A stretch of DNA of 64,000 bases, taken from the NCBI RefSeq assembly GCF_005280655.1, contig NZ_CP040058.1, positions 467,001-531,000 on the forward strand, read 5' to 3'. The position numbers and the translations under genes were made by a program. Positions 34,814 through 59,925 of this stretch are shown here, in pieces; position 1 is the stretch's first letter; each line of letters opens with the position of its first letter. Source of the stretch: Anaerostipes rhamnosivorans. GTDB taxonomy: Bacteria; Bacillota; Clostridia; Lachnospirales; Lachnospiraceae. Under the pieces are notes generated by a model. That model had not been told where the DNA came from, ran no database searches, and saw only the letters and a list, made by a program, of their open reading frames with translations.

Positions 34814-34818
34814 AAGAG

Positions 34819-36545: not shown

Positions 36546-36563
36546 TCAGAACAGGAGGAAAAA

Positions 36564-36974
36564 ATGGTAGGAGTTTTAATCATCAGCCATGGAACGCTGT
36601 GTAAAGGTCTGGTAGACAGCGTATCCATGGTGGCAGGAGACATAGAACAGTCCAAGTGTATTTCTCTACTTCCCGGGCAGGAGCCCGGGGAGTTCAGGGA
36701 AACGGTAACAAAAGCACTGGAAGCACTGGATACAGGAATGGGCGTGCTGGTGCTCACTGACCTTTTAGGGGGCACCCCGTTTAATACCATCGCCATGTTG
36801 AGCCAGGAATATACGGTATCGGTCATCACCGGTATGAACATGGCAATGGGGATCTGTACAGCCCTTCAGAGAGAGGCGGATATGTCTCTTGAAGAACTGT
36901 CAAATCTCGCCGAGGCAGCGGGACACGACGGTATCAAAAGGCTGGGGATACAGAAGAGAGGAGCGGCAGAATAA
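36564..36974 (+). CDS. PTS mannose-family EIIA
   Basis: 136 residues. The phosphorylated His is in VLIISHGTLCKGLVDS near residue 10, and LVLTDLLGGTPFN is the second signature of the EIIA-Man fold. It sits directly after the EIIC-EIID fusion and abuts the first dehydrogenase gene (next start at the base after its stop). Confidence 0.92.
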   Translation: MVGVLIISHGTLCKGLVDSVSMVAGDIEQSKCISLLPGQEPGEFRETVTKALEALDTGMGVLVLTDLLGGTPFNTIAMLSQEYTVSVITGMNMAMGICTALQREADMSLEELSNLAEAAGHDGIKRLGIQKRGAAE

Positions 36975-38024: not shown

Positions 38025-38039
38025 AGGACGGAGGAAATC

Positions 38040-38738
38040 ATGAAAGAGAACTTTTCTGTTTCCCTGATGTGTATGGATTTCTTAAACATCAGGGAGCAGC
38101 TTGAAATATTAAATGAACAGGTTGGTATGTATCATGTGGATATCATGGACGGCCACTACTGTAAGAATATCACCCTGTCACCGGATATGGTCAAAGCATT
38201 TAAAAAGGTGTCAAAGGTCCCTCTTGACGTACACCTTATGACAACAAATCCTGAACTTTGGATTAACACCGTGGCAGAAGCCGGGGCAGACATCATATCC
38301 CTGCATGCGGAAACCATCAATGGGCAGGCGTTCCGGCTGTATAACCAGATCCGGGAGCTGGGGTTGAAAACCGGACTGGTACTCAATCCGGCAACCCCGC
38401 TTTCGGAGGCGGCCCATTATCTGGGCAGGATTGACCTGCTGACCATTATGACCGTGGATGTGGGATTTGCGGGGCAGCCGTTTATTGAAGAGATGCTGGA
38501 CAAAATAGCCGAGGCCAAAAGGCTGCGGGAAGAAAACGGATACCATTACCGTATACAGATCGACGGTTCCTGCAAGCCGTCCACATTTAAGAGACTTATG
38601 GATGCGGGGGCCGATGTGTTGATACTGGGAAGTTCCGGGTTGTTCGGGCTGGATCAGGACTTACATGAGGCATGCAGGAAAATGACGGAAAGCTACAGGA
38701 AGGCACTGGAAGGATCGGAGGTTTCTTGTGGATTATAA
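38040..38738 (+). CDS. alsE: D-allulose-6-phosphate 3-epimerase (AlsE-like)
   Basis: 232-residue beta-barrel epimerase. It resembles E. coli AlsE more than ribulose-phosphate epimerase: SLMCMDFLNIREQLE, HVDIMDGHYCKNITLSP, HAETINGQAFRL, GLVLNPATPL, MTVDVGFAGQPFI, and IDGSCKPSTFKRLMDAGAD. The ETINGQAFR and DGSC segments are typical of AlsE. It interconverts allulose-6-P and fructose-6-P. Its presence suggests that the operon passes through allulose-6-P. Its stop overlaps the next start by 11 bases. Confidence 0.88.
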   Translation: MKENFSVSLMCMDFLNIREQLEILNEQVGMYHVDIMDGHYCKNITLSPDMVKAFKKVSKVPLDVHLMTTNPELWINTVAEAGADIISLHAETINGQAFRLYNQIRELGLKTGLVLNPATPLSEAAHYLGRIDLLTIMTVDVGFAGQPFIEEMLDKIAEAKRLREENGYHYRIQIDGSCKPSTFKRLMDAGADVLILGSSGLFGLDQDLHEACRKMTESYRKALEGSEVSCGL

Positions 38739-39288
38739 AGATTACAAAGAGCTGATCCTGGGGGAACTTGACCAGTCACTCTCCGCGGTAAACGGACAGG
38801 AAGTGCGGGAGATGACAGAAATGATCCTAAAAGCAGAGAAAGTATTTGTGACCGGAGTGGGGAGAGTGTTTATGATGATGGAAGCATTTGCAAAACGTCT
38901 GAATCATCTGGGAATCGAAGCTTACTGTGTGGGGGATGTGAATGAACCTGCAGTCACAAAACATGATGTGCTGATAGCCGGCTCCGGATCCGGGGAGAGT
39001 ATCATACCCCTGGAGCTTGCGAAAAAGGCAAAACAGTATGGGACATCCGTCATCCACATCGGTTCCAATGCGGAAAGCTCCATGTCAGCATATGAAGATC
39101 TGTTTGTAAGGATTCCATGCAGGACAAAACTGCACCTTGAGGATGAAATAGAATCAGCACAGATCATGAGCAGCCTGTTTGAGCAGAGTCTGTTGCTTCT
39201 TTTGGATGCGGCCGCGCTGATGATCATGCAGGAGAAGAAGATCGAAGATATAGACTCCCTTTGGGAGAAGCATGCGAATCTGGAATAG
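38728..39288 (+). CDS. hxlB: SIS-domain sugar-phosphate isomerase (6-phospho-3-hexuloisomerase-like)
   Basis: 186 residues, HxlB size. The SIS fold has KVFVTGVGRVFMMMEAFAKRL, YCVGDVNEPAV and DVLIAGSGSGESIIP, with the C-terminal EDEIESAQIMSSLFEQSLLLLLDA in parts. HxlB turns D-arabino-3-hexulose-6-P into fructose-6-P in the ribulose monophosphate cycle, but no HxlA is present, so the substrate here is probably a 3-keto or aldose phosphate from the imported sugar. Start GTG 38728 with GGAGG 7 bases upstream, inside the alsE end. Confidence 0.82.
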   Translation: MDYKDYKELILGELDQSLSAVNGQEVREMTEMILKAEKVFVTGVGRVFMMMEAFAKRLNHLGIEAYCVGDVNEPAVTKHDVLIAGSGSGESIIPLELAKKAKQYGTSVIHIGSNAESSMSAYEDLFVRIPCRTKLHLEDEIESAQIMSSLFEQSLLLLLDAAALMIMQEKKIEDIDSLWEKHANLE

Positions 39289-39300
39289 GAGGAAAAGAAA

Positions 39301-39771
39301 ATGGAACATTTACTATTGGCCCGGGTGGACGACCGACTGATCCACGGACAGGTGATGACGGCATGGATGAAGCTGCTGCCGGCAAAAGAAATACTCATCG
39401 CGGATGACAAAGTGGCAAAGGACCCGTTTATGACACAGGTCCTGACAATGGCGGCGCCTGGGGGTGTGAAGGTCAAGGTCTACTCCGTGGAACAGGCGGC
39501 ACAGGCACTGAAAGAAGGGCTTAAGGCCCCTTCCATTATGCTGGCAAAGACTCCGCTGACCTACAAAAAGATCATGGATCTGGGAGCAGAGATACCGGAG
39601 ATCAATATCGGAGGTATGGGAATCAGTGGTGAGCGGAAGACATTATACAAGAATATCGCAGCTGACCCGCAGGAGAGGGATGCCATAAAAGAATTTATCA
39701 ACAAGGGCATCCAAGTGAAGATCCAGGTAATTCCTGCGGATAAAGTTGTCGATGTGTCCGGACTTTTATAG
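39301..39771 (+). CDS. PTS mannose/fructose/sorbose-family EIIB
   Basis: 156 residues. The phospho-His is in RVDDRLIHGQVMTAW near residue 15, the EIIB signature of this family, and not a Cys as in the other PTS families. It lies apart from the EIIC-EIID and EIIA genes, behind three enzyme genes, but in the same strand and with short gaps, so it completes the same transporter. Confidence 0.92.
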   Translation: MEHLLLARVDDRLIHGQVMTAWMKLLPAKEILIADDKVAKDPFMTQVLTMAAPGGVKVKVYSVEQAAQALKEGLKAPSIMLAKTPLTYKKIMDLGAEIPEINIGGMGISGERKTLYKNIAADPQERDAIKEFINKGIQVKIQVIPADKVVDVSGLL

Positions 39772-39789
39772 GACGGGGAGGGACAGAAA

Positions 39790-40836
39790 ATGAAAGCAAT
39801 GAGACTGCATGAGATCGACAGATTTACGCTGGATGAGGTTGAAAAGCCCAAACCTTCAGGACGGGAAATTCTTGTGAGGGTTGAGGCCTGCGGCATTTGT
39901 GGTTCGGACATTCCGCGGGTGTATGAACTTGGCACTAAGGTTTATCCCGTGACGCTGGGACATGAATATTCAGGCACAGTTGTGAGTGTCGGGGACGAGC
40001 AGGACACAGATCTGATTGGAAAGACAGGAGCGATCTATCCAGTAGTACCATGTATGAAATGTCAAAGCTGCAGGATTGGACAGTATGCCCAGTGCAGTAA
40101 TTATAAAAATCTTGGTTCCAGGACCGACGGAGGTTTTGCACAGTACTGTCTGCTCCCGTCAGCGGACCACCTGGTGTTCCCAAAGAATGAGGACGTACCG
40201 GCAGAGTGGCTGGCGCTGACGGAGCCTGCCTGTGTGGCACTGCATGCTATCCGAAAGGGAGAGATCAAAGGCGGGGATACCGTAGTGATTTTTGGCGCAG
40301 GGCCAATTGGGATACTCACAGCGCGCTGGTGCCGATTATTTGGGATTCAGGCTCTGCTGGTAGAGATCGACCGGAAGAAAACAGAATTTGCGAGGGAAAA
40401 GGGACTGACGGTCATCCACCCGGAGGATGGAGAAGTTGAGGAGCAGGTAAGAAAACTGACCGGCAAAGGCATGGCAGATGCGGTCATTGAGGGGACCGGA
40501 AGTTCTCCGGCACTGAACCAGGCAGTAGAGTGTTTAAAACCGTTTGGCATGCTGGTCCTTTTGGGCAATCCCCACAAGGATACTGTTCTGGCGCTGGACA
40601 GCCACAGCCAGATTCTCCGGAAGGAATTGAGACTTACTGGGGTGTGGAACAATTATTTTAACGACCTGCCGTTTAACGAGTGGCAGTATACGGTTGACAG
40701 GATCGCGGACGGGAGGCTTTTGGTGGAGGATCTGATAACACACAGGTCGGATCTTACACATTTGAAAGAAATGTTTGACCAGATTTATAAAAGAGAGATC
40801 ACCATATGCAAGGCGATCTGTTTGCCGGAAGAATAG
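39790..40836 (+). CDS. Zinc-dependent polyol-phosphate dehydrogenase (GatD-like), copy 2
   Basis: 348 residues, related to the protein at 36975. Catalytic zinc ligands are in EACGICGSDI and TLGHEYSG. Structural zinc Cys: PCMKCQSCRIGQYAQC. NAD fold: TVVIFGAGPIGILTARWCRLFG in parts. The shared C-terminal features are LLGNPHKDT and GVWNNYFNDLPFNEWQYTV. As the last gene of the PTS operon it may work in sequence with copy 1, as SorE and SorD do in sorbose operons. Confidence 0.88.
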   Translation: MKAMRLHEIDRFTLDEVEKPKPSGREILVRVEACGICGSDIPRVYELGTKVYPVTLGHEYSGTVVSVGDEQDTDLIGKTGAIYPVVPCMKCQSCRIGQYAQCSNYKNLGSRTDGGFAQYCLLPSADHLVFPKNEDVPAEWLALTEPACVALHAIRKGEIKGGDTVVIFGAGPIGILTARWCRLFGIQALLVEIDRKKTEFAREKGLTVIHPEDGEVEEQVRKLTGKGMADAVIEGTGSSPALNQAVECLKPFGMLVLLGNPHKDTVLALDSHSQILRKELRLTGVWNNYFNDLPFNEWQYTVDRIADGRLLVEDLITHRSDLTHLKEMFDQIYKREITICKAICLPEE

Positions 40837-42881: not shown

Positions 42882-43673
42882 CTATCTTGGGGCGGTGCTT
42901 CTTAATTTATCCTCATATATCTCTTTCAGTTCGTAAAAAGCATTCATAACCACATCTGGGATCTGCACCTCTGCAATATAACCGCGTCCCATTGGACCGT
43001 ATCCCTCTTCATTATTGGATAAGCGGGGGACCTCACTCATAAGCAGCGAAATATAGTGATCCATTTCCCACATGCCCCACAAAGTGCTGTCGCTGAACTG
43101 TAATTCTCCGTCCTGTACTATCACCTGATTACGGTAAGATGCATAGTTGATCACTTTGATGCTGGGTGCGTATCTTTTAAAGCCCGCACACATACGCCGC
43201 TGCATAGAAGCGTCCTGCATCAAAATGATATGTTTAGCATCTATATGGTGAAGCCGCAGAATTTCTAGTGCATTGGTCACATTGTTTCCGCAGTTAGTAG
43301 AGTTACGTTCCAGCAGGATATCCCGGATTCCATATTTTTGTGTGATATAGTCCTGCATGATATCCGCTTCCATCCTGCCTTCCACAGGTATTTCAGGATA
43401 TCTGGCATGGAAGCGGCTGCGCAGGGCATCCGTTGTATGGCCCTCTCCGCCGACGATCATCAGCCGGGAGGCAGTTCCGTTAAGGAACCCCTCCGCCGCT
43501 GTATCACATCCTGCGGGAATACTGCCGCCGAATAATATTAAGACGTCAGCCTGCCGGATCCCATAGGTTTCATTCAGAGAAACCGAATCCAGATGTTTTA
43601 TGTCTCTTATGCCGCAGAAATCAGCCAGAATATTTAGGTTCTTCGCTGTTCTTTCTAATTCTGCTGTCATCAT
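42882..43673 (-). CDS. YdcF/DUF218-family protein
   Basis: 263 residues of the DUF218 (ElyC/SanA/YdcF) fold. The core is DVLILFGGSIPAGCDTAAEG, RLMIVGGEGHTTDAL, LLERNSTNCGNNVTNAL and IILMQDASMQRRM. No signal peptide or membrane span is seen, so it is the cytoplasmic YdcF-like group, which binds nucleotide-like molecules; function unknown. It starts 2 bases after deoC on the minus strand, and that link suggests a role with deoxynucleoside or sugar-phosphate metabolism. Confidence 0.82.
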   Translation of the reverse strand: MMTAELERTAKNLNILADFCGIRDIKHLDSVSLNETYGIRQADVLILFGGSIPAGCDTAAEGFLNGTASRLMIVGGEGHTTDALRSRFHARYPEIPVEGRMEADIMQDYITQKYGIRDILLERNSTNCGNNVTNALEILRLHHIDAKHIILMQDASMQRRMCAGFKRYAPSIKVINYASYRNQVIVQDGELQFSDSTLWGMWEMDHYISLLMSEVPRLSNNEEGYGPMGRGYIAEVQIPDVVMNAFYELKEIYEDKLRSTAPR

Positions 43674-43675
43674 TC

Positions 43676-44389
43676 TCAGGAATCCAGCCCCAGGACTACA
43701 GGCACTGATTTATATCCCACGCCCATTCTGTCAATTCCCATGTCGATCAGTTGTAAGAAATGCTCTCTTGTACGGATAGACCCGCTTCCCTTGATCTTAC
43801 ACTTGTCACCAACCTCGTCCATCATAAGCTTAATCACCTCCGGTGTGGCACCGTGCAGCTCAAAGCCTGTCAGGAATCCAGTACTGGTCTTTACAAAATC
43901 CACACCCGCTTCGATACAGCACTGACAGGTCTTTTTGATCTGTTCTTCTGTGAGTGCATCGGTCTCAAAAATGGCTTTCAGTTCTTTCCCATGCTTGTGT
44001 GCAGCATCCGCGCAGGCTTTCAGATCCTCGGTGACTTTGCCGTATTCTCCGGAACGGATCCATCCGAAGTTTGCCACCACGTCAATCTCCTTTACACATT
44101 CATAACGGGCCGCGATCTCGATCTGTGCAACCTTGGATTCTGTGGCGCTTGTGCCGAACGGGAAGTCTGTCACCGGGCAGAGTCCTGTATTAGTTCCTTC
44201 TACATATGGTGTGCAGAGTTCAATGTATCCAGGGTTGATGCAGATTGTGGCACATCCCTGTTTTACCCCGTCTTTTGTCAGATCAATGATCTGCTCCTCT
44301 GTGAATTCCGGCTTCAGCACGGAATAGTCAATGTAGGCTGCCAGTTCTTTCACTGTCATTTCACTTGCTTTTTTAGATATCTTTTTCAT
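43676..44389 (-). CDS. deoC: Deoxyribose-phosphate aldolase
   Basis: 237 residues. It splits 2-deoxyribose-5-phosphate to acetaldehyde and glyceraldehyde-3-phosphate. The Schiff-base Lys is in DFVKTSTGFLTG near residue 160. The second Lys is in CKIKGSGSIRTREHFLQL. It has AGGAGG 6 bases before its ATG on the minus strand. It heads a two-gene transcript with the ydcF-like gene. No deoxynucleoside phosphorylase or phosphopentomutase is nearby, so it may act on another 2-deoxy sugar phosphate. Confidence 0.93.
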   Translation of the reverse strand: MKKISKKASEMTVKELAAYIDYSVLKPEFTEEQIIDLTKDGVKQGCATICINPGYIELCTPYVEGTNTGLCPVTDFPFGTSATESKVAQIEIAARYECVKEIDVVANFGWIRSGEYGKVTEDLKACADAAHKHGKELKAIFETDALTEEQIKKTCQCCIEAGVDFVKTSTGFLTGFELHGATPEVIKLMMDEVGDKCKIKGSGSIRTREHFLQLIDMGIDRMGVGYKSVPVVLGLDS

Positions 44390-44733
44390 GATTTACCTCC
44401 TGAAAGTGCTTTTGTTTGTTTCTGTAATTGTAATATATCATCGTTCCATAAGCTTTTCTTGTTTTGGAAATCCAAGTTTTTGTAATATATTGATATCTCT
44501 AAAAAACTTATTATTCTCAATCCCGACATATCCGATCACTCATATATATTGTAGAAAAAGGTATCTAGAAAAAGTTTAAAAGAGATCTCCATTTTCTTCT
44601 ATCCAGGTTCCGTTTTTCTACAGATTTGAAAGTTTTCTTTTATTATTTCCAAAATCATCATCAGCAATAAAACTATAAATAACAATTGTCCATGTGCAGA
44701 ATTGCTGAAAAAAATGAAAAAGTTTTATGGTTA
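44390..44733. other. AT-rich divergent intergenic region with direct repeats
   Basis: About 340 bases between divergent deoC and sorC-like gene 2, with no gene. TTGTAATATAT occurs twice (44428-44438 and 44480-44490), 52 bases apart, which is close to five helical turns and suits paired operator sites on the deoC side. No clear minus-strand promoter could be fixed. Confidence 0.45.
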
Positions 44734-44762
44734 TTGACAACCCATACAAACGAACGTACAAT
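44734..44762 (+). promoter_or_regulatory. Promoter of the sorbitol-type operon
   Basis: TTGACA at 44734-44739, a 17-base spacer, and TACAAT at 44757-44762. The next terminator is at 51599, so it can drive nine genes. Confidence 0.88.
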
Positions 44763-44833
44763 GTAGAAAACGATCAATAGAACAGGAACATGGTCAAATG
44801 ACCAAAGACATCAGAGAAAGGAGGACGGAGAAA

Positions 44834-45796
44834 GTGGAAGACAATCGATTTTTGATCAAAGTGTCAGAATTATATTTTAAGGATGGACTGTCCCAGGAAA
44901 AAATAGCAAAAAAACTGAATGTGTCGAGGACTACCATCTCCAGGGCACTGGGGAAAGCAAAGCAGGAAGGGATCGTCCGGATCCACATTACATATCCCGA
45001 ATCCAGCAACATGATGATGGAAAAAGAGATGGAAAAGAGATTTGGACTGAAGGAGGCACTGATCGCCGTACCTGTGGAGGGACAGACATCCGCTCAGGCT
45101 GTGGCTGGTCAGACTGCAGACTATGTCATCCGGGTCCTCAAGAAGAATATGATCCTGGGAGTGACCTGGGGAAGAGCTATGTATGAGTTTGTGAGGCGTC
45201 TAGGCGAGGATGAACGGACCAGGGCCCTATCCTACCGGAATGTAAAGATCGTTCCTTTCCTTGGAACACCTAGTGAGGTGGACCGGAATTATAAGTACCG
45301 TATGACTTACTCTAATACACTGGCCACCGGCATCGGGGATATTTTAGGCTGTACCAGCTATAATCTGTCGGCACCTATGTTTGTACAGGATGAGCAGGCT
45401 AAAAATATGATTGAGAGCATCGATGGAGTTTCAAAGGTGTTAAAGATTGCGGAGCAGTCGGATATCGCCCTGTTTGGCATCGGCTCCATAGGAGCGGATT
45501 CCTCGATCATAAAGGCAGGGATGAGGACTGGGGAAGAATATGAAGAATTGAGAAGACAGGGCGGTGCGGGAGAGATCGTAGGCAGAATCTATGATTCTTT
45601 TGGAAATACAATAGATGAAAAACTGAACAAAAAGATGGTAGGGATCTCATTGGAACGCATGAGGACCATACCAATCCGGGCCGGGGTTGCCTACGGGCCT
45701 GGAAAAACAGAAGCCATCAGGGGAGCAATGAAAGGAGGAATCATCAATGTGCTGATCACGGATGCCGCAACTGCAGAAAATATCTTAGAGATTTAG
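44834..45796 (+). CDS. SorC-family sugar-binding regulator 2
   Basis: 320 residues. HTH: YFKDGLSQEKIAKKLNVSRT, then TISRALGKAKQEGIVRIHI. The sugar-binding domain has LGVTWGRAMYEFVRRLG, FLGTPSEVDRNYKYRMTYSN and FGIGSIGADSSIIKAG. I choose GTG 44834, with AAGGAGG 9 bases upstream, over the ATG at 44798. This gives MEDNRFLIKV, matching the start of its paralogue MKNDRFLIKV at 41023. First gene of the glucitol PTS operon and inferred to be its regulator, alongside GutM. Confidence 0.9.
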   Translation: MEDNRFLIKVSELYFKDGLSQEKIAKKLNVSRTTISRALGKAKQEGIVRIHITYPESSNMMMEKEMEKRFGLKEALIAVPVEGQTSAQAVAGQTADYVIRVLKKNMILGVTWGRAMYEFVRRLGEDERTRALSYRNVKIVPFLGTPSEVDRNYKYRMTYSNTLATGIGDILGCTSYNLSAPMFVQDEQAKNMIESIDGVSKVLKIAEQSDIALFGIGSIGADSSIIKAGMRTGEEYEELRRQGGAGEIVGRIYDSFGNTIDEKLNKKMVGISLERMRTIPIRAGVAYGPGKTEAIRGAMKGGIINVLITDAATAENILEI

Positions 45797-45808
45797 GGAG
45801 GTGTATGT

Positions 45809-46273
45809 ATGAAATTAACGATGGCAATTGTATTTGGAGGAATCGTTATTGCATGGCTGCTGCAGGGATTCTTTGCATTCAGCCAGGCCAGGAACATCCA
45901 GAAGACCTACAAAGAACTGACAGACCGATACGCCAAAGACTACTGTATCGGATTCGGCCAGGCAAAGGGAAGGTTCTTCGGAAAAGGCTGCATCCTGCTT
46001 GTGGTGGCGGACCGGAATATGATCGTAAAGGATTCTGTGAAACTGGCAGGAGTTTCTGTGTTGAGCAGGATGAGGCCCAACCGGGACCTGATCGGCAGAG
46101 ATCTATCGCTGACAGTCAGAAAGGAGGAGTTTTTACAATTAAGAGATCAGCCAAAAAGAAGATTTATTAAGAAAAGAGACCAAAGAAAAACAAGTGAGGA
46201 AAAAGCAATCAGTCTGGCCGCTAGAAATATTTATGATTATATCAATCAGAAAAACCAAGTGAGCCAGGCATAA
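45809..46273 (+). CDS. gutM: Glucitol operon activator GutM
   Basis: 154 residues of the GutM family. An N-terminal hydrophobic segment (AIVFGGIVIAWLLQGFFAF) is followed by the conserved GFGQAKGRFFGKGCILLVVAD block and SRMRPNRDLIGRDL. GutM activates glucitol (sorbitol) PTS genes in enterobacteria. It lies between the SorC gene (12-base gap) and the EIIC gene (15-base gap) and directly supports sorbitol as the operon substrate. RBS GGGAGGTG. Confidence 0.92.
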   Translation: MKLTMAIVFGGIVIAWLLQGFFAFSQARNIQKTYKELTDRYAKDYCIGFGQAKGRFFGKGCILLVVADRNMIVKDSVKLAGVSVLSRMRPNRDLIGRDLSLTVRKEEFLQLRDQPKRRFIKKRDQRKTSEEKAISLAARNIYDYINQKNQVSQA

Positions 46274-46288
46274 CCAAAGGAGGTAATT

Positions 46289-46840
46289 ATGGACGCAGTT
46301 AGTTCTTTTTTTGAAGGTTTCATCAAGATGTTCAACGCAGGAGGCGAGAATCTGATGGGACTGATCACATCAATTCTGCCGACACTGGCATGTCTTATGA
46401 CATTCGTGCTGGCAATCGTAAAACTGATCGGAGAGGAGCGCATTGAAAAATTAGCCCTGAAAGGATCAAAGAACGTGATCATGAGATACACGATCCTTCC
46501 GATGATCTCTTACTTCGTGTTCACTAACCCAATGAACTTCGCGCTGGGAAGATTTCTCCCTGAGAAATACAAAGGATCTTTCTTTGACGCATGCTGTACG
46601 GTGGTACATCCAATGACCGGATTATTTCCACATGTAAATTCAGGAGAATTATTTATCTGGCTTGGAATTTCCAGCGGAATCACGAAGCTGGGACTGGGAA
46701 CCACAGGGCTTGCGGTGCGGTTCCTGCTGATCGGTATTGTGCTCGCGTTTATCCGGGGTGTGCTGACAGAAAAGATCTGGATGATCTACGCAAAGAAAAA
46801 CGATGTTCCGTTCAGAGATTCCAATGAACTGACAATTTAA
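46289..46840 (+). CDS. srlA: PTS glucitol/sorbitol EIIC (SrlA/GutA-like)
   Basis: 183 residues, the usual SrlA size. About four to five membrane spans, with FEGFIKMFNAGGENLMGLI at the start, LPMISYFVFTNPMNFALGRF and HPMTGLFPHVNSGELFIWLG in the middle. First transporter subunit of the glucitol system; the EIIB, second EIIC and EIIA genes follow at once. Confidence 0.93.
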   Translation: MDAVSSFFEGFIKMFNAGGENLMGLITSILPTLACLMTFVLAIVKLIGEERIEKLALKGSKNVIMRYTILPMISYFVFTNPMNFALGRFLPEKYKGSFFDACCTVVHPMTGLFPHVNSGELFIWLGISSGITKLGLGTTGLAVRFLLIGIVLAFIRGVLTEKIWMIYAKKNDVPFRDSNELTI

Positions 46841-46869
46841 TCAAAGGTGATATAAGGAGGATATGAATC

Positions 46870-47241
46870 ATGAGTTATAAAACAGTGAAAGTTGAAAAAG
46901 GAAGAAGCGGATGGGGAACCCCTTTAATCGTGACACCAAAAGAAGGGCAGAAGATTGTCAGCGTCACTGGAGGAAAGATTCATCCGGTAGCTGAGAAGAT
47001 CGCGGAGCTTACAGGGGCACCGGTGGTGGATGGATTTAAAAATCCGGTAAAAGATGAAGAGACAGCCTGTGCAGTCATTGACTGTGGCGGAACCTGCCGT
47101 CTGGGCATCCTTCCGAAAAAGGGAATTTTGACGATCAACATCAACGGAGGAGGGCCTTCCGGGCCGCTTAAAAGCTTTATCAAGGAAGGGCTTTATGTAT
47201 CCGGAGTAAAACCAGAGAACGTTTCATTGAGTGAAGATTAG
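46870..47241 (+). CDS. PTS glucitol/sorbitol EIIB (separate protein)
   Basis: 123 residues, equal to the N-terminal part of enterobacterial SrlE. It begins KTVKVEKGRSGWGTPLIV, and its phosphocysteine loop is AVIDCGGTCRLGILP near residue 77. In E. coli this domain is fused to the second EIIC; here it ends in SLSED and a new gene starts 14 bases later with its own AGAGGAGG site, so the split is genuine. Confidence 0.9.
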   Translation: MSYKTVKVEKGRSGWGTPLIVTPKEGQKIVSVTGGKIHPVAEKIAELTGAPVVDGFKNPVKDEETACAVIDCGGTCRLGILPKKGILTININGGGPSGPLKSFIKEGLYVSGVKPENVSLSED

Positions 47242-47255
47242 AGGAGGATGAACTG

Positions 47256-47807
47256 ATGGAGGAAAAGAAAGGCAATGTAATTTCCAGAATTATTGATACA
47301 TTTGGACGGGGAGCCGGTAAATTTACTTCCGTATTCTTTCAGGCGGGAAGAGAAACGATGGAAGTTATCACAGGAACGATCCTTCCCTTTATGTTTTTTG
47401 TCTCAGCTCTGGTGGGGATCATTACAGCCACTGGGGTGGGAAATATGATCGCCAACGGATTAAAGCCGCTGGCAGGAAACCTGATTGGATTAATTATCAT
47501 CTCCCTGATCTGCGGAGTTCCTATCCTGTCCCCTCTTCTGGGACCGGGAGCTGTTATCGCCCAGGTCATCGGTGTTTTGATCGGTACAGAGATTGGAAAA
47601 GGGACCATCCCTCCCCAATATGCACTTCCGGCACTGTTTGCCATCAACCCGCAGGTGGGATGTGACTTTATCCCAGTTGCCCTGGGATTGGAGGACGCGC
47701 AGCCTGAGACGGTGGAATGTACGGTTCCTTCGGTGCTGATGGTGAGGTTCATCACTGCCCCTGTAGGTGTGCTGCTTGGATTCATCCTGATGACTGGAAT
47801 GTTTTAA
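47256..47807 (+). CDS. srlE: PTS glucitol/sorbitol second EIIC subunit
   Basis: 183 residues, equal to the membrane C-terminal half of SrlE. Landmarks are FFQAGRETMEVITGTILPFM, GVPILSPLLGPGAVIAQVIG and FAINPQVGCDFIPVALGLED. About four spans. With SrlA, the free EIIB and EIIA it completes the sorbitol transporter. RBS AGAGGAGG. Confidence 0.9.
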   Translation: MEEKKGNVISRIIDTFGRGAGKFTSVFFQAGRETMEVITGTILPFMFFVSALVGIITATGVGNMIANGLKPLAGNLIGLIIISLICGVPILSPLLGPGAVIAQVIGVLIGTEIGKGTIPPQYALPALFAINPQVGCDFIPVALGLEDAQPETVECTVPSVLMVRFITAPVGVLLGFILMTGMF

Positions 47808-47825
47808 CGGAGGTAGAGGAGACAA

Positions 47826-48197
47826 ATGAGCCAGGTAATATATAAGACAGAAGTGATCCGTCTTGGATCAGAGGCCATGGATGCGCTGGACCAGAACCTG
47901 TTGATCCTGTTCGGACAGGAAGTGCCGGAGATCCTGGAGGACATGGTGTTTGTACATAACAACAATGAAGTGCTGGCAGAGCCAAAAAAGGGAGACTATC
48001 TCCTGGTGGACGAACAGGAATTTGAGATTCTTAGTGTTGGGGAAGTGGCATACCAGAATCTGTCACAGCTGGGGCACTGCACCCTGACATTTGGAGAAAA
48101 TCAGGACCAGGAGATTCTTCCGGGCAGCATCTATTTAAAATCACTTAGGGCGCCGAAGGCTGGTGTGGGAAGCATCATACAGATCATTCAGGCATAG
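47826..48197 (+). CDS. srlB: PTS glucitol/sorbitol EIIA
   Basis: 123 residues, the usual SrlB size. The phospho-His is in LSQLGHCTLTFGENQDQEILPG in parts, near residue 80. Early residues include LILFGQEVPEILEDM. RBS GAGGTAGAGGAG. It receives phosphate from HPr and passes it to the free EIIB. Confidence 0.92.
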   Translation: MSQVIYKTEVIRLGSEAMDALDQNLLILFGQEVPEILEDMVFVHNNNEVLAEPKKGDYLLVDEQEFEILSVGEVAYQNLSQLGHCTLTFGENQDQEILPGSIYLKSLRAPKAGVGSIIQIIQA

Positions 48198-48219
48198 CAG
48201 AAGGAAGGAATAAAAAAGA

Positions 48220-49476
48220 ATGAAAACGAAAGCAGTTAGAATTTACGGAAAAGAAGACCTGAGACTGGAAGAGTTTGATTTACCGGAGTTGAATGATGAT
48301 GAGATCCTTATGGAGATTGTTTCAGACAGCGTCTGCATGTCTACTTATAAGGAAGCATTACAGGGAGAAAATCACCAGAGAGTCAACAAAGATATCAAAG
48401 AACGCCCGGTGATCGTAGGACATGAGTGTGCGGGGATCATTCGGAAGGTAGGGAAAAAGTGGAAGGATCAATACAAGGAAAATGAGACCTACACTATCCA
48501 GCCGGCTTTGAACATCGAAGGGTCCATGGCTTCTGTGGGATACTCCTTTGAATACTGCGGAGGGGATGCAACCTTTATTGTTGTACCGGACATTGTGATG
48601 GAAAAGGGCTGCCTGCTTCCGTTTGACAGCGGCAATGGCTTTTTCCAGGCATCTTTGGCAGAACCTATGAGTTGTATTATCGGGGCATTCCATTCCATGT
48701 ATCACGGGGAGCGGGGAGTTTACCAGCATGAGATGGGCATTGTAAAAGGCGGGAAAAGCGCGCTGTTAGCCTGCTGCGGACCTATGGGGCTGGGAGCTAT
48801 CGGATATATGCTGAACTGCGTAAGAAGACCGGGATTGCTTGTGGTGACTGACATTGATGAAGACCGGCTCAAAAGGGCGCAGACGCTGTTTTCTGAGGAC
48901 TATGCAAAAGAGCGAGGCGTGGAACTTCACTATGTGAACACTGCAAAAGAAGAAAATGAAGTGGAGACTTTGAGAGCTCTCACAGGCGGAACAGGCTTTG
49001 ACGATGTGTCTGTATATGCACCGGTCCGCCAGGTGATCGAGACCGCTGATAAGATCCTTGGTTTTGACGGCTGTCTGAACTTTTTTGCCGGACCGGTAGA
49101 TCCGGAATTGTCAGCGATGTTTAACTTCTTTAATGTCCACTACAAGATGACCCATATTGTAGGCTCCAGCGGCGGCAATACGGAGGATATGAAGGAATGC
49201 CTCAGAATGTCCGGAGAAGGAATCCTTAATCCGGCCGTGATGGTGACCCATGTGGGCGGAATGGACGCGGTCATTGACACTACATTAAATCTTCCTAAGA
49301 TCCCCGGGGGCAAGAAGCTGATCTATGTGGGAATTGACATGGAACTGACAGCGATTGATGAATTTGAAGAAAAAGGCAGGACAGATGAGAGATTTCAAAC
49401 ACTTGCCAATATTACACAAAAAAATAATGGACTGTGGTGTGCAGAAGCAGAAAATTATCTCTTAGATAACTTTTAA
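48220..49476 (+). CDS. L-sorbose-1-phosphate reductase-like zinc dehydrogenase (SorE-like), copy 1
   Basis: 418-residue medium-chain dehydrogenase of the SorE group. SorE interconverts sorbitol-6-P and L-sorbose-1-P. Catalytic zinc ligands are in SDSVCMSTYK and VIVGHECAG. The structural zinc Cys cluster found in GatD-type enzymes is absent. LAEPMSCIIGAFHSMYH and CCGPMGLGAIGYML follow, and the C-terminus has LPKIPGGKKLIYVGIDMELT. No SrlD-type short-chain sorbitol-6-P dehydrogenase is in the operon, so this enzyme is inferred to do the oxidation. It is similar throughout to the protein at 59926. Confidence 0.87.
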   Translation: MKTKAVRIYGKEDLRLEEFDLPELNDDEILMEIVSDSVCMSTYKEALQGENHQRVNKDIKERPVIVGHECAGIIRKVGKKWKDQYKENETYTIQPALNIEGSMASVGYSFEYCGGDATFIVVPDIVMEKGCLLPFDSGNGFFQASLAEPMSCIIGAFHSMYHGERGVYQHEMGIVKGGKSALLACCGPMGLGAIGYMLNCVRRPGLLVVTDIDEDRLKRAQTLFSEDYAKERGVELHYVNTAKEENEVETLRALTGGTGFDDVSVYAPVRQVIETADKILGFDGCLNFFAGPVDPELSAMFNFFNVHYKMTHIVGSSGGNTEDMKECLRMSGEGILNPAVMVTHVGGMDAVIDTTLNLPKIPGGKKLIYVGIDMELTAIDEFEEKGRTDERFQTLANITQKNNGLWCAEAENYLLDNF

Positions 49477-49568
49477 CAAACGGTCAAATTTGTTTTCTGA
49501 ACACCAAATCCATCATTAAGACCAGAATATACGAAAACATAAATCAAGTCAACGTAAAGGAGCATCTT

Positions 49569-50408
49569 ATGTTAGTGAACAGCAAAGAAATTTTATTGGC
49601 AGCGAAAAAAGGACACTATGCAGTGCCTGCGACAAATGTATTTAACTTAGAGAGCATCAAAGGAGTACTCAGTGCAGCAGAAGAGACAAACCATCCGTTG
49701 ATGGTCTGCTTGGCGGAAGTACATACACCGGAACTTGGGATTGAGGAAGCAGCCCATATTGTAAAATATTATGCTGAAAAATGCAGTCAGGACATTGTCC
49801 TTCACTATGACCACGGATTTACAAGTGAGATGGTAAAGCAGGCCATTGATGCGGGTTTCACTTCCGTTATGATCGACGGCTCCAGCCTTCCGTTTGAAGA
49901 AAATGTGGAGAAAACAAAGGAGATCGTGGCTTATGCCCATAAGCGCAATGTAACAGTGGAAGCAGAGATCGGACACGTGGGCGGGGGAGAATCTTATCTG
50001 GACCCGGAAGATGACGACACAATGCTCACCACAGTAGATGAGGCAGTAAAATTCGCGGAGCTCACAGGAGTGGACTCCCTGGCTGTATCCATTGGCACTG
50101 CGCACGGGGAATACAAAGGCATTCCTCATCTGAATTTTGACAGATTAAGCCAGATCGCAGAGCGTGTGGAAGTGCCGCTGGTACTCCACGGAGGTTCCGG
50201 TTCCGGGGATGAGAATCTGACAAAGGCAGTCCAGCTTGGCATATGCAAAGTGAATATTTTTACAGACCTGACCATTGCCGCAAAAGAAAAGACAAAAGAA
50301 GGATATGCTGACAGAAGTTATTATGACAGTACAAAGTTAGCTGTCCAGGGAATTAAAGAATGTCTGATGCACTATTATGAAGTGTTCCAGACCAAAGGAG
50401 AAAAGTAA
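49569..50408 (+). CDS. Class II ketose-phosphate aldolase
   Basis: 279-residue zinc aldolase. Metal ligands are in LHYDHGFTSEM, EAEIGHVGGGESY, GTAHGEYKGIPHL and LVLHGGSGSGDENL; CKVNIFTDLTIA binds phosphate. It is shorter than the housekeeping Fba at 26380 and diverges from the GatY-like protein at 53410. The operon has no sugar-phosphate kinase, so it is inferred to cleave a ketose monophosphate: L-sorbose-1-P to DHAP and L-glyceraldehyde. RBS AAAGGAG, 92 bases after the dehydrogenase gene. Confidence 0.87.
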   Translation: MLVNSKEILLAAKKGHYAVPATNVFNLESIKGVLSAAEETNHPLMVCLAEVHTPELGIEEAAHIVKYYAEKCSQDIVLHYDHGFTSEMVKQAIDAGFTSVMIDGSSLPFEENVEKTKEIVAYAHKRNVTVEAEIGHVGGGESYLDPEDDDTMLTTVDEAVKFAELTGVDSLAVSIGTAHGEYKGIPHLNFDRLSQIAERVEVPLVLHGGSGSGDENLTKAVQLGICKVNIFTDLTIAAKEKTKEGYADRSYYDSTKLAVQGIKECLMHYYEVFQTKGEK

Positions 50409-50413
50409 AAACC

Positions 50414-51571
50414 ATGAGATATTATGATTATATGGCGCCGTCTGTGAATTTTATGGGACCGGGATGTATTGAAGTCCTCGGAGAACGTGTAAAACTGCTC
50501 GGCGTAAAAAAGCCGCTTCTGGTTACAGATACATTTTTAAATGAGTTGGAGGACGGCCCTGTCATGCAGGCAGCAGCTTCCCTGAAAAATACAGGCATTG
50601 AATATGCTGTTTATACAGGAGTTGAGCCAAACCCGAAGGTACAGAACTGTCTGGACGGGCTTAAGATCTATAAAGAAGAAGGTTGTGACTCCATCATTAC
50701 AGTGGGAGGCGGTTCTTCCCATGACTGCGGAAAGGGAATTGGTATCGCGGCAACTCATGAAAAACCCTTGACAGAATATGCAGGGATTGAGACTCTGACC
50801 AACCCGCTGCCTCCGGTGATCGCTGTAAATACCACAGCAGGTACTGCGAGTGAAGTTACAAGACATTGTGTGCTTACTAATTTAGACACTCACCTTAAGT
50901 TCGTCATTGTGAGCTGGAGAAATGTACCGCTGGTTTCCATCAATGATCCGCTGCTTATGCTGGGTGTGCCTAAAGGTCTCACTGCAGCCACAGGAATGGA
51001 TGCGCTGACTCATGCAGTGGAATCCTATGTATCCGTGGACGCCAATCCGGTCACAGATGCTGCGGCTGTCCAGGCCATCAAGCTGGTGGCAGGAAACTTA
51101 AGGCAGGCAACAGCCAACGGGCAGAATGAAAAGGCAAGAGAAAATATGGCCTATGCATCACTTTTAGCGGGAATGGCATTCAACAATGCCAACCTGGGTT
51201 ATGTCCACGCCATGGCACATCAGCTGGGAGGGCAGTATGACATGCCCCACGGTGTAGCCAATGCGATCCTTCTGCCGACAGTGGAGGAATACAACCTGAA
51301 CTCAGCGCCGGAAAGATTTGCGGATCTGGCAGTGCTTCTCGGAGAGAACATTGATGGGCTGTCTGTGATGGAAGCCGGACAAAAAGCCATTCAAGCAATG
51401 AGAAATCTGGCGGAAGATGTAGGGATACCAAAAACCTTAAAAGAGATGGGAGTTAAAAGGGAAGATTTCGAGCTGATGGCAGAGAACGCACTGTTAGACG
51501 GAAATGCGTTCAGCAACCCAAGAAAAGGGTCAAAAGAAGATATCATCCGTTTGTTTGAGAAAGCTTATTAA
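50414..51571 (+). CDS. Iron-containing alcohol dehydrogenase
   Basis: 385-residue group III dehydrogenase. The NAD motif is ITVGGGSSHDCGKGIGIAA near residue 95. Metal ligands: ATGMDALTHAVESYV, and VHAMAHQLGGQYDMPHGVAN with the two His of the C-terminal set. It resembles lactaldehyde/1,3-propanediol-type reductases. As last gene of the sorbitol operon, 5 bases after the aldolase, it is inferred to reduce the aldehyde from cleavage (L-glyceraldehyde to glycerol), reoxidising the NADH made in the first step. Confidence 0.9.
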   Translation: MRYYDYMAPSVNFMGPGCIEVLGERVKLLGVKKPLLVTDTFLNELEDGPVMQAAASLKNTGIEYAVYTGVEPNPKVQNCLDGLKIYKEEGCDSIITVGGGSSHDCGKGIGIAATHEKPLTEYAGIETLTNPLPPVIAVNTTAGTASEVTRHCVLTNLDTHLKFVIVSWRNVPLVSINDPLLMLGVPKGLTAATGMDALTHAVESYVSVDANPVTDAAAVQAIKLVAGNLRQATANGQNEKARENMAYASLLAGMAFNNANLGYVHAMAHQLGGQYDMPHGVANAILLPTVEEYNLNSAPERFADLAVLLGENIDGLSVMEAGQKAIQAMRNLAEDVGIPKTLKEMGVKREDFELMAENALLDGNAFSNPRKGSKEDIIRLFEKAY

Positions 51572-51598
51572 GAAAAACAATGTATGTCGTTTGGATAA

Positions 51599-51631
51599 AA
51601 ACAGGTATGAATGTTCTCATACCTGTTTTTT
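51599..51631 (+). terminator. Terminator of the sorbitol-type operon
   Basis: AAACAGGTATGA (51599-51610) and TCATACCTGTTT (51617-51628) form a perfect stem, followed by TTT. Confidence 0.9.
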
Positions 51632-51780
51632 CGGCGTGGATTCATAAAAAGATACCAAAAGAAACATAATATATACGAAAGTTATTTCATACAAAAAATC
51701 GGTTAAAAAACAGAAGGCAATACCTGCGATTATTTTTCTCCATTGTCGCAAGGAGGCCTTTCCAGAGCCGACTGGAGATA

Positions 51781-52458
51781 ATGGAGAAAAATATGATGAA
51801 TCTATACGATATTATGGGCCCCGTCATGGTGGGTCCTTCTAGTTCACACACGGCAGGTGCGGCAAGGATCGGCCTGATCTCCAGAAAGCTTTTGGGGGAG
51901 CCGGTCTGGCGGGCGGAGATCTTGTTTCATGGATCCTTTCAGGCTACCGGTGTCGGACATGGAACTGACCGGGCGGTCATGGCAGGGCTTCTGGGCATGG
52001 GACAGGATGATCTGAGAATCCCGCAAAGTTTAGAGATTGCCAGGGATGAGGGGATCCAATGGAGGTTTGGAAAGACGTTCTTAAAAGATGTCCATCCAAA
52101 CAGTGTGAAACTTCTGCTCACAGGCAAAAGCGGAAGAGAACTTGAGATCGTCGCAAGTTCTCCAGGAGGCGGCAGGGTTTTGATCTGCCGGATGGATGGG
52201 CTTGAGACAGATTTTTCAGGAGACATGCCCACGATGATCGTACACAATGACGATAATCCAGGACATGTGGCCGCAGTGGCTTCCCTGCTGGCTGAATCAG
52301 GGATCAACATCGCATCTATGCGGCTTTCCAGGGACCGGAGAGAGGGAAATGCTGTCATGGTGTTGGAATGTGACCAGGAGATTTCTAACGAAACAGTGAG
52401 ACAGATAGAAAAGATGAAAGGAATCCACAAAGCCGCCTGCCTGGCGGGAATGGATTGA
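51781..52458 (+). CDS. sdaAB: L-serine ammonia-lyase, beta subunit
   Basis: 225 residues. The N-terminus is LYDIMGPVMVGPSSSHTAGAAR, the SdaAB signature. A C-terminal ACT domain is at about 148-222 (MIVHNDDNPGHVAAVASLLAE in parts), likely for regulation. Together with the alpha subunit it makes pyruvate and ammonia from serine with a 4Fe-4S cluster. The start could be 51781 or the ATG 51793; both have GGAG nearby. sdaAA begins 1 to 13 bases after its stop. Confidence 0.93.
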   Translation: MEKNMMNLYDIMGPVMVGPSSSHTAGAARIGLISRKLLGEPVWRAEILFHGSFQATGVGHGTDRAVMAGLLGMGQDDLRIPQSLEIARDEGIQWRFGKTFLKDVHPNSVKLLLTGKSGRELEIVASSPGGGRVLICRMDGLETDFSGDMPTMIVHNDDNPGHVAAVASLLAESGINIASMRLSRDRREGNAVMVLECDQEISNETVRQIEKMKGIHKAACLAGMD

Positions 52459-52471
52459 GGTGAGGTTTGGA

Positions 52472-53362
52472 ATGGGATTTCAATCAATGGCGGAGATGGA
52501 GGAAGCGGCAAAGGAGGCCGGGATCCCGCTCTGGAAAGCGGTCATGGAAGACGATAAGAGGGAGCGTCATGTATCGGAAGAGGAGACAATGTTGAAGATG
52601 AGGGAGCGCTATCATGCCATGAAACAGTCAGACGCGGACTATGAGGAAAATCTTAGTTCATGGAGCGGCCTTTCCGGCGGGGACGGGGCCAAAATGCAGA
52701 GATTTGTGTCCCAGGGAAATGCAGTCTCAGGGGAACTGATGGGCGAAGTGATCGCGGGAGCGCTGAAAATGGGAGAATCCAATGCCTGCATGAAGCGGAT
52801 CGTGGCGGCTCCCACGGCCGGGGCCTGTGGAGTGGTTCCTGCTGTGTTTCTGGCTTACGAAAAGTTTTATAAGATACCGGAGAGGTCCATGCTGGAGGGA
52901 ATGTTCTTAGCTGCGGGCATTGGACAGGTCATTGCACATAGGGCCAGCATTTCCGGGGCACAGGGAGGCTGCCAGGCAGAGATCGGATCGGCCTCTGCCA
53001 TGTGCGCAGGGGCTCTAACCCATATCCGCGGTGGGAATACGCAGCAGATCTGTTCGGCAGGTGCCTTTGCCTTAAAAGGTCTGCTGGGGCTGGTCTGTGA
53101 TCCTCTGGGCGGGTTGGTGGAGATTCCGTGTATACGGAGAAATGTGACCGGTGCTGTAGGTGCAGTGGCCTGTTCTGACATGGCAATGGCAGGAGTTTAC
53201 TCCAGGGTGCCGTTTGACGAGGTGATTGACGCCATGGGGGAGATCGGTGAGATGATGCCGGGAGGTTTAAAGGAGACAAGCCAGGCGGGACTTGCCGCCA
53301 CGGAGACTGGAAAGAAGATCGCCCTCGACCTGGCACAGAGGAACCAGACGCCCCAGTGCTGA
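52472..53362 (+). CDS. sdaAA: L-serine ammonia-lyase, alpha subunit
   Basis: About 296 residues. Cluster and active-site Cys are in AAPTAGACGVVPAVF, GAQGGCQAEIGSASAMCAGAL and NTQQICSAGAF. The other landmarks are GEVIAGALKMGESNACM and the C-terminal PGGLKETSQAGLAATETG. I place the start at ATG 52472, since TGAGG lies 6 bases upstream; a GTG at 52460 in the same frame is possible. It ends at a bidirectional terminator shared with the convergent gatY-like gene. Confidence 0.93.
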   Translation: MGFQSMAEMEEAAKEAGIPLWKAVMEDDKRERHVSEEETMLKMRERYHAMKQSDADYEENLSSWSGLSGGDGAKMQRFVSQGNAVSGELMGEVIAGALKMGESNACMKRIVAAPTAGACGVVPAVFLAYEKFYKIPERSMLEGMFLAAGIGQVIAHRASISGAQGGCQAEIGSASAMCAGALTHIRGGNTQQICSAGAFALKGLLGLVCDPLGGLVEIPCIRRNVTGAVGAVACSDMAMAGVYSRVPFDEVIDAMGEIGEMMPGGLKETSQAGLAATETGKKIALDLAQRNQTPQC

Positions 53363-55171: not shown

Positions 55172-55195
55172 GGCCTTTGAAGGTCTTATTTTTTT
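55167..55195 (+). terminator. Terminator after the rpiR-type gene
   Basis: AATAAGGCCTT (55167-55177) pairs with AAGGTCTTATT (55180-55190) with one G-T pair, followed by Ts. It overlaps the stop codon and separates the regulator from the kinase operon. Confidence 0.8.
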
Positions 55196-55210
55196 GTCGT
55201 TTTCAGGATA

Positions 55211-55243
55211 TGAAAAGATTTTCATGGAATACTTGTCTATAAT
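55211..55243 (+). promoter_or_regulatory. Kinase-PTS operon promoter with RpiR-type palindrome
   Basis: TGAAAAGATTTTCA (55211-55224), 13 bases, then TATAAT (55238-55243). TTTTCAGGATA upstream adds a further half site. Confidence 0.7.
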
Positions 55244-55283
55244 AAAGACTGTAAAAAGAAATTGTATTCTATGGATGAGCAGT

Positions 55284-56207
55284 ATGATTTATACGTTAAC
55301 TACAAATCCTGCCATCGATATGAACATTTCCACAAAAGGAATGGAACGTGCAAAAGTAAACCGCACATTCGATACGGTTTACACTCCCAATGGAAAAGGT
55401 GTCAACGTCACGCTGACATTAAAGCATTATGGGGTTGATTCCACGGTTACTGGATTTTTTGGAGGATTTTCGGGAAAATATATTGTAGAGGAACTGGAAA
55501 ATAGACAGGTGGCTGTAAAGCCGGTCTGGGTCGGTGACACAACAAGGATCAATATATTTTTAAATGATGGAGAGGGCGAATTCAAATTTGTCAACAGCGG
55601 ATCGTTTGTCGGAAGGGACCAGCAGGAAGAAATGCTGCATCTTTTCGAGACAGCCGAAGATCTGAGCTGTCTTGTGATCAGCGGCAGTCTTCCGCCTGGA
55701 ATCGAACCGAGTTATTACGAAAGTATTTTGTCAATCTGTAAAAAGAGGGGCATTGATGTGGTGCTGGATATCAGTTCTCCGAAACTGAAAGACTTATTAA
55801 AATACCAGCCCTTGCTGATCAAACCAAACGATGAAGAGATCGAAGAGATCTTCGGGATTAAGATCAAGGACGAAGAAGACATACTGCATGTCCTTACCTT
55901 CCTGAAAGAACAGGGGGCCAGGAATGTACTGCTGACGCTCGGAAGCAAAGGAGCGTATTTCAGTAACGGAGAAGATGTGTATTATTCATCTTCCCAGCCG
56001 GTTAAGTTATTAAGCTCGGCGTGTGCGGGAGATGCCGCATTGGCAAGCTTTTTAAGCCTTTGGCTCGACCATCCGGAAAATGTTGAGGATGCATTGAAGC
56101 GTTCAGCTGCCACAGGGGCAAATGTGGCGGAGAGCAACGCACTCGGTGATTTTGCCAAAGTAGATACTTACTTTCACAATATCAAAATAAGAAAGGTGGA
56201 GAAATGA
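55284..56207 (+). CDS. PfkB-family ketose-1-phosphate 6-kinase (FruK/TagK-like)
   Basis: About 307 residues from MIYTLTTNPAIDMNISTKG. Substrate loop PNGKGVNVTLTLKHYG, LVISGSLPPGI, LIKPNDEEI, and the C-terminal anion-hole region SACAGDAALASFL. The usual GAGDS is CAGDA here; the catalytic Asp stays. It phosphorylates the ketose-1-P delivered by the fructose-type PTS to a 1,6-bisphosphate, which GatY can cleave. Start at 55284 or ATG 55275; no strong ribosome binding site for either. The EIIBC gene starts 1 base after the stop. Confidence 0.88.
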   Translation: MIYTLTTNPAIDMNISTKGMERAKVNRTFDTVYTPNGKGVNVTLTLKHYGVDSTVTGFFGGFSGKYIVEELENRQVAVKPVWVGDTTRINIFLNDGEGEFKFVNSGSFVGRDQQEEMLHLFETAEDLSCLVISGSLPPGIEPSYYESILSICKKRGIDVVLDISSPKLKDLLKYQPLLIKPNDEEIEEIFGIKIKDEEDILHVLTFLKEQGARNVLLTLGSKGAYFSNGEDVYYSSSQPVKLLSSACAGDAALASFLSLWLDHPENVEDALKRSAATGANVAESNALGDFAKVDTYFHNIKIRKVEK

Positions 56208-59914: not shown

Positions 59915-59925
59915 GAGGATCAGGG

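Follow-up and report, generated by a model that had tools for sequence, protein, structure and literature searches.

A predicted kinase-free operon for alditol cleavage by way of a ketose-1-phosphate in Anaerostipes rhamnosivorans

Several described pathways share parts with a nine-gene operon of the gut bacterium Anaerostipes rhamnosivorans that lies between positions 44734 and 51630 of a 64,000-nucleotide window (the whole stretch of DNA analyzed; G000:C1:467001-531000, where G000 is the 3.59 Mb, one-contig genome and L-numbers below denote loci examined). The operon encodes a glucitol-type phosphotransferase system (PTS), a zinc dehydrogenase of the YggP/SorE family, a class II aldolase and an iron-dependent alcohol dehydrogenase (Fe-ADH). 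The canonical srl/gut sorbitol operon has EIIC, EIIB/C and EIIA proteins of the same family together with GutM; unlike it, the window operon lacks SrlD and has the YggP/SorE-family dehydrogenase, the aldolase, the Fe-ADH, a SorC regulator and separate EIIB and EIIC2 genes. The L-sorbose pathway, in which SorE is followed by SorD/SrlD, employs the same dehydrogenase family on the pair L-sorbose-1-phosphate/sorbitol-6-phosphate, whereas the route considered here would run towards the ketose-1-phosphate and then to an aldolase. In E. coli cmtBA-yggP and in clostridial operons that combine a mannitol PTS, PfkB, a dehydrogenase, HPr and EI, a PTS is again found with a relative of the dehydrogenase (54% identity for YggP), but that PTS is of the mannitol type and a kinase or fructose-bisphosphatase gene stands where the window has its aldolase and Fe-ADH. 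E. coli YdjI, a 1-phosphate aldolase of PF01116, resembles the window aldolase in fold and in the absence of a DPR motif, but is 36% identical and receives its substrate from a kinase (YdjH, as annotated) rather than from a PTS. The end of the L-fucose and L-rhamnose pathways (FucA/RhaD and FucO) likewise cleaves a ketose-1-phosphate to dihydroxyacetone phosphate (DHAP) and a free aldehyde that is reduced by an Fe-ADH, but with an aldolase of the PF00596 fold, from a sugar rather than an alditol, and with a kinase rather than a PTS. Eukaryotic fructolysis, in which aldolase B acts on fructose-1-phosphate, also yields free glyceraldehyde and DHAP from a ketose-1-phosphate, but uses a class I aldolase and starts from fructose and fructokinase.

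We propose that the window operon is probably an accessory, kinase-free unit for the breakdown of a single alditol, each reaction being predicted by comparison with known families. The glucitol-type PTS would import the alditol and phosphorylate it at one end; the YggP/SorE-family dehydrogenase would oxidize the carbon adjoining the phosphate-bearing carbon to give a ketose-1-phosphate; the class II aldolase would split this compound into DHAP and a free aldehyde; and the Fe-ADH, of the DhaT type, would reduce the aldehyde to a small alcohol, taking back NADH. The stereochemistry of the scheme is equally open to sorbitol, by way of L-sorbose-1-phosphate and L-glyceraldehyde to glycerol, and to D-arabitol, by way of D-xylulose-1-phosphate and glycolaldehyde to ethylene glycol. 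The arrangement combines known enzyme families in a new way; no description of such a pathway was found in the literature, as covered by titles and abstract openings, with most subscription journals outside this coverage.

The nine genes are all open and, like the promoter and terminator, lie on the + strand, with the order originally predicted, SorC first and Fe-ADH last. A predicted sigma-70-like promoter (TTGACA-17-TACAAT, 44734..44762) scores 11/12 in a consensus scan and ranks best of the 22 such sites in 43500-53000 (shuffled mean 12.7). The regulator (44798..45796) has a SorC/DeoR-type sugar-binding domain (PF04198, 205 bits) and is followed by GutM (45809..46273; PF06923, 62.8 bits against a cut-off of 25). 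All four parts of the PTS score above a Pfam cut-off: EIIC (46289..46840; PTSGlctlSorbSrlA, 225 bits, cut-off 150), an EIIB split from EIIC2 (46870..47241; PF03612, 173 bits), EIIC2 itself (47256..47807; PF07663, 137 bits) and EIIA (47826..48197; PF03829, 108.5 bits). Downstream of the three enzyme genes lies an intrinsic terminator (51597..51630; fold z -4.56), a 14-bp hairpin whose 3' arm runs into a U run; none of 200 shuffles folded as well, and the consensus scan did not list this terminator, which is visible by folding. Profiles, consensus scan and folding thus bear out the enclosure of SorC, GutM, the split glucitol PTS, dehydrogenase, aldolase and Fe-ADH by one promoter-like site and one terminator. 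The claim that the operon holds neither an SrlD-type short-chain dehydrogenase/reductase (SDR) nor a sugar-phosphate kinase was confirmed across its nine genes. In the neighboring loci described below, many gene names, among them those of regulators, serine dehydratase alpha and TIM-like proteins, were assigned by eye unless a profile or comparison is named.

Turning to the dehydrogenase (48220..49476), a predicted alditol-1-phosphate to ketose-1-phosphate enzyme, its best named relatives over the full length are E. coli YggP (54%) and SorE (45-47%; 47% for the Citrobacter protein), which places it in the YggP/SorE family; G000 encodes at least eight full-length members of this family at 46% or above, this one included. 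Its initial description as SorE-like was right as to family, but the protein is nearer to YggP and falls outside the SorE group in the tree. That tree was made by a quick method, left out L097 and two rows from the sister genome G009, and places L131 and L133 on long branches. In it, the window dehydrogenase and its ortholog from G006, another genome of the genus (support 100), lie inside a 47-row group (support 98) with all 24 PfkB-linked rows, and the SorE trio forms a group of its own (support 91), apart from this PTS/PfkB group. With this position, and with no Man/sorbose-type PTS or SDR among the nine operon genes, the dehydrogenase does not qualify as a SorE ortholog. The true SorE of G000 is likely the protein at L132:8804-10066 (55% to Citrobacter SorE and 49% to the window dehydrogenase), a SorE-type dehydrogenase in a sorbose set that also has sorbose-type EIIC and EIID and another SDR of the SrlD type.

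The position at which the dehydrogenase would act can be approached from SorE and from genomic context. SorE interconverts L-sorbose-1-phosphate and sorbitol-6-phosphate, with oxidation beside the phosphate, and the L099 record carries this naming. Operon partners were parsed at 78 of the best 80 named loci, drawn from at least 594 relatives in other genomes, and comprised PfkB (21 loci), a mannitol-type PTS (21), HPr (14) and a PF00596 aldolase-SDR fusion (25). At L137 in genome G049, an additional locus with this partner, the PfkB passes the 1-phosphofructokinase cut-off (336.7 vs 292) and the PTS the mannitol cut-off (553 vs 468). Mannitol-1-phosphate oxidized at C5 gives fructose-6-phosphate, whereas oxidation beside the phosphate gives fructose-1-phosphate; the 1-phosphofructokinase-like PfkB neighbors fit formation of a ketose-1-phosphate, because fructose-1-phosphate is what such a kinase takes and fructose-6-phosphate would need none. 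Both SorE and the PfkB context therefore fit an enzyme that would oxidize the carbon beside the phosphate-bearing carbon. In Fischer projections drawn by hand, sorbitol-6-phosphate, mannitol-1-phosphate and D-arabitol-5-phosphate do not differ in the three carbons closest to the phosphate.

Two other loci of G000 carry members of the same family near class II aldolases. At L131:6254-11611 (G000:C1:132000-150000), a glucitol-type PTS unit is divergent from a YggP-family dehydrogenase, a class II aldolase lacking DPR and a SorC regulator. At L133:6865-10486 (G000:C1:974000-992000), genes for a mannitol-type PTS, a dehydrogenase of the YggP family and a class II aldolase without DPR follow one another, with a gene for a PFL/glycerol dehydratase-type glycyl radical enzyme nearby; the L133 aldolase gene shares 68 bases with the gene that follows. 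Within the window, a yggC-yggP-like pair (59168-61191) beside a fructose operon resembles the E. coli cluster cmtBA-yggP-yggF-fumE-yggC.

The aldolase (49569..50408), predicted to be of the ketose-1-phosphate type, is a PF01116 barrel (308.9 bits) with the class II invariant residues. The arginine of the DPR motif serves the distal phosphate of bisphosphate substrates. All five bisphosphate references aligned (window 26380, window 53410 and E. coli GatY, KbaY and FbaA) have DPR; of these, window 26380 passes the fructose-bisphosphate aldolase cut-off (393 vs 343) and window 53410 the tagatose-bisphosphate cut-off. The same alignment shows no DPR in the window aldolase, in those of G006, L146, L014 and L131, or in the IolJ-like protein and YdjI; YdjI is named L-glycero-L-galacto-octuluronate-1-phosphate aldolase in record NC_000913. 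The window aldolase also scores below the narrower NCBIfam models, with 277.4 against a cut-off of 343 for the fructose-bisphosphate aldolase model TIGR01859. G000 encodes 24 PF01116 class II aldolases in 3.6 Mb, two with DPR and two with DPK, and one of the DPK proteins, L188, passes the fructose-bisphosphate aldolase cut-off. A 61% paralog of the window aldolase lies in a sorbose/mannose-type PTS operon (L170:5107-14354; G000:C1:1754000-1773900) that also encodes a zinc dehydrogenase, a kinase of the APH type, an enolase (540 bits) and a member of the aldehyde dehydrogenase family; with these enzymes, free glyceraldehyde would be converted by way of glycerate and 2-phosphoglycerate to phosphoenolpyruvate. 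Together these comparisons are suggestive of a clade of ketose-1-phosphate rather than bisphosphate enzymes, although an arginine may still occupy the DPR position, as described below. Aldolases at L014:6433-13508, L168 and L169, 53-56% identical to that of the window, share a block that includes genes for a TIM-like isomerase and a UPF0047 protein. A glucitol-type PTS and an oxidoreductase of the DRL type are also present at L014, and FGGY-type kinases at L168 (by eye) and L169.

The last gene (50414..51571) encodes the Fe-ADH. It had been called an iron alcohol dehydrogenase, which holds; more exactly it is a predicted aldehyde reductase of the DhaT type, with 583 bits to the 1,3-propanediol oxidoreductase 3bfj and 72% identity to a Clostridium butyricum protein named 1,3-propanediol dehydrogenase. 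These matches are also what favors a reading in which a deoxy-alditol is the substrate, the aldolase releases 3-hydroxypropanal and the Fe-ADH forms 1,3-propanediol. We consider this very improbable: it requires a rare deoxy-alditol, and other Fe-ADHs act on other aldehydes (FucO, for example, named lactaldehyde reductase in the match list). No glycerol dehydratase, the operon partner of DhaT, is encoded among the nine genes. Five pairs of aldolase and Fe-ADH sequence clusters have longest contigs of equal size (79976, 16157, 12468, 22513 and 15044), the first two pairs at 90-91% identity and the others at 63-79%; these matching contig sizes suggest that the two genes may also occur together in other genomes. 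The named database relatives of both proteins at 90-91% come from Anaerostipes sp.

Several observations weigh against cleavage of a ketose-1-phosphate by these enzymes. The known substrate of DhaT is 3-hydroxypropanal. In none of the 80 named loci does the dehydrogenase adjoin a PF01116 aldolase; such a gene occurs within 6 kb at two of them (L067 and L091), adjoining in neither, and E. coli has fbaA on the same strand as yggP but some genes further on. Moreover, 30 of the 78 parsed dehydrogenase operons hold no PfkB, PF00596-SDR fusion, PF01116 or FGGY gene. On the side of the aldolase, the broad ketose-bisphosphate model TIGR00167 is passed (258.4 vs 215.6), the predicted fold (pLDDT, the predicted local distance difference test, 90.2) is as good a match to bisphosphate aldolases as to YdjI, and the column of the DPR arginine is occupied by Arg249 in two MAFFT alignments, or by Thr255 in a HMMER alignment to 3q94. 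Finally, a PfkB gene belonging to the fructose operon mentioned above lies 3.6 kb downstream of the window operon.

These points can be assembled into an alternative in which the ketose-1-phosphate is phosphorylated by a PfkB from elsewhere (for example 55194-56207), a bisphosphate aldolase cleaves the product, and the activity of the Fe-ADH is a side activity. The PfkB operons of the dehydrogenase relatives (21 of the 78 parsed loci), the downstream PfkB (289.2 bits to 1-phosphofructokinase, just below the cut-off of 292), the TIGR00167 match and an Arg249 that may stand for the DPR arginine would all accord with it. However, the downstream PfkB belongs to a fructose operon that is also present in G009, which lacks the window operon, and the co-transcribed Fe-ADH is left unexplained. 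Arg249, too, is not kept across the aldolase clade: among 114 homologs of 260-300 residues from the best 120 of 1693, it is found in 11/12 at 75% identity or above, 3/17 at 65-75%, 15/41 at 58-65% and 0/44 below, 29/114 overall. We therefore judge phosphorylation to a bisphosphate to be quite unlikely, and cleavage of the ketose-1-phosphate itself remains the reading we prefer.

The choice of alditol turns largely on the PTS and on sorbitol genes elsewhere in the genome. A DCGG cysteine in EIIB and an LGH histidine in EIIA are common to the window proteins, E. coli SrlE/SrlB and the proteins of L009, a standard sorbitol set of G000 with an SrlD-type SDR (PRK06171, 426.6 bits, cut-off 304), a PRD-domain regulator, GutM, EIIC, EIIBC and EIIA. 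E. coli SrlB His43, which we take to be the phosphorylation site, is kept in the window EIIA and is Val in the EIIA of this canonical operon (L009:9439-9789), which makes that assumption doubtful, perhaps wrong or not general. G000 has eight glucitol EIIA genes and, besides the window and L009, four further glucitol-type PTS units (L012, L014, L015 and L131), so the PTS family alone does not give the substrate. The L015 unit (L015:8106-11148) includes, by eye, two similar genes, one scanned as Fe-ADH_2, with RpiB-like and HAD-like genes. E. coli SrlA is 50% identical to the L009 EIIC and 43% to that of the window, and the comparison of EIIBC points in the same direction (L009 56%, window 52%), whereas that of EIIA does not (L012 41%, L014 38%, L009 34%, window 32%).

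Nine of ten other genomes of the genus have a match to the L009 SDR at 86% or above, with one stop inside the matched stretch in G002 and in G007; in G004 the matches are contig-end fragments only (90-95%). According to published reports, sorbitol strongly induces an operon of sorbitol-6-phosphate dehydrogenase, gutM and sorbitol PTS in Anaerobutyricum soehngenii (PMC7702098), and a strain of Anaerostipes caccae grows on sorbitol (PMC8375055). Because of the L009 set, its genus-wide SDR, the EIIC and EIIBC likeness and the induction in A. soehngenii, sorbitol most likely takes the ordinary route in G000, and a different alditol may be the substrate of the window PTS. Sorbitol had been named as the substrate in the original prediction, and this part finds no support in view of the separate canonical operon, whose SrlD-type gene is kept across the genus; what stands of the proposed three-enzyme chemistry is that the dehydrogenase, aldolase and reductase families fit by comparison. 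The outcome named at the time as contrary to sorbitol, an srlD elsewhere in the genome as the gene induced by sorbitol, was found in part: SrlD-type SDRs are encoded at L009 and L132, and the sorbitol-induced analog comes from the account of A. soehngenii (PMC7702098).

The sorbitol form of the proposal, in which sorbitol-6-phosphate would be converted to L-sorbose-1-phosphate and then to DHAP and L-glyceraldehyde, the latter reduced to glycerol, is accordingly rather doubtful. It would account for the glucitol-type PTS with GutM, for the relationship to SorE with its L-sorbose-1-phosphate/sorbitol-6-phosphate pair, for the L170 aldolase paralog, which points to a C3 aldehyde, and for the minimal G006 operon described below, which lacks a PTS, as might be expected if it drew on sorbitol-6-phosphate or another shared intermediate. 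Set against it are the canonical L009 operon with its widely kept SDR, the closer likeness of E. coli SrlA and EIIBC to L009, which EIIA does not follow, and the four further glucitol-type units of a family that does not name its substrate. A D-arabitol form, from D-arabitol-5-phosphate through D-xylulose-1-phosphate to DHAP and glycolaldehyde, with reduction to ethylene glycol, is unlikely. An enzyme line for mannitol and sorbitol could accept D-arabitol-5-phosphate, given the likeness of its three phosphate-proximal carbons, and C3 and C4 would look no different to the aldolase; the window EIIC is also nearer to its L014 and L131 paralogs (49% each) than to L009 (39%) or SrlA (43%). No sequence feature, however, names D-arabitol.

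Whichever alditol is used, the operon appears to be an accessory unit. In the sister genomes G009 and G004 the same site runs from the upstream PTS operon to serine dehydratase genes without the window operon (with a DUF218 gene between in G009), and among the ten other genomes of the genus a close relative of the dehydrogenase is found only in G006 (75%), the best in the rest reaching at most 54%; we regard the operon as accessory because of these empty sites and this narrow distribution. In G006 the relative belongs to a minimal operon of SorC, dehydrogenase and aldolase (59%, 75% and 77% identity, respectively) without PTS or Fe-ADH, and the core thus looks to be regulator, dehydrogenase and aldolase. 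Two glucitol EIIA genes were found in G006, one inside a sorbitol operon and one alone. Upstream in the window, the PTS operon at 30738-40836 encodes an ascorbate-type EIIC, a fused Man-type IIC-IID, an allulose-6-phosphate epimerase, a 6-phospho-3-hexuloisomerase and two zinc-dehydrogenase-like proteins; a SorC gene beside it, at 41023, encodes a protein 67% identical to the SorC of the window operon.

With respect to energy, the pathway had been expected to save the ATP spent by phosphofructokinase. That ATP would indeed be spared, but there would be no net gain, because half of the carbon leaves as glycerol. By textbook stoichiometry, counting PEP-driven import and a single triose phosphate, the proposed route would yield about +1 ATP and a net gain of one NADH per sorbitol, against about +2 ATP and three NADH on the standard one. 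Unless the glycerol is used further, the route would be redox-light rather than a gain in ATP.

Gut Clostridia break down the food polyols sorbitol, mannitol, xylitol and arabitol. More tentatively, a wider proposal can be made, which joins two statements: that the genus ferments a common hexitol without a kinase, through oxidation of the PTS product beside its phosphate, a dedicated ketose-1-phosphate aldolase and reduction of L-glyceraldehyde to glycerol, and that the whole YggP/SorE family converts alditol phosphates to ketose-1-phosphates (in clostridia, mannitol to fructose-1-phosphate), with 1-phosphofructokinase or direct cleavage to follow. The scheme offers a clear test for PF01116 aldolases labeled as fructose-bisphosphate aldolase. 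If true, it would alter the expected products of polyol use, to glycerol or ethylene glycol, together with its redox balance and marker enzymes, and would point to a function for E. coli YggP and its many related dehydrogenases, whose names come from similarity only.

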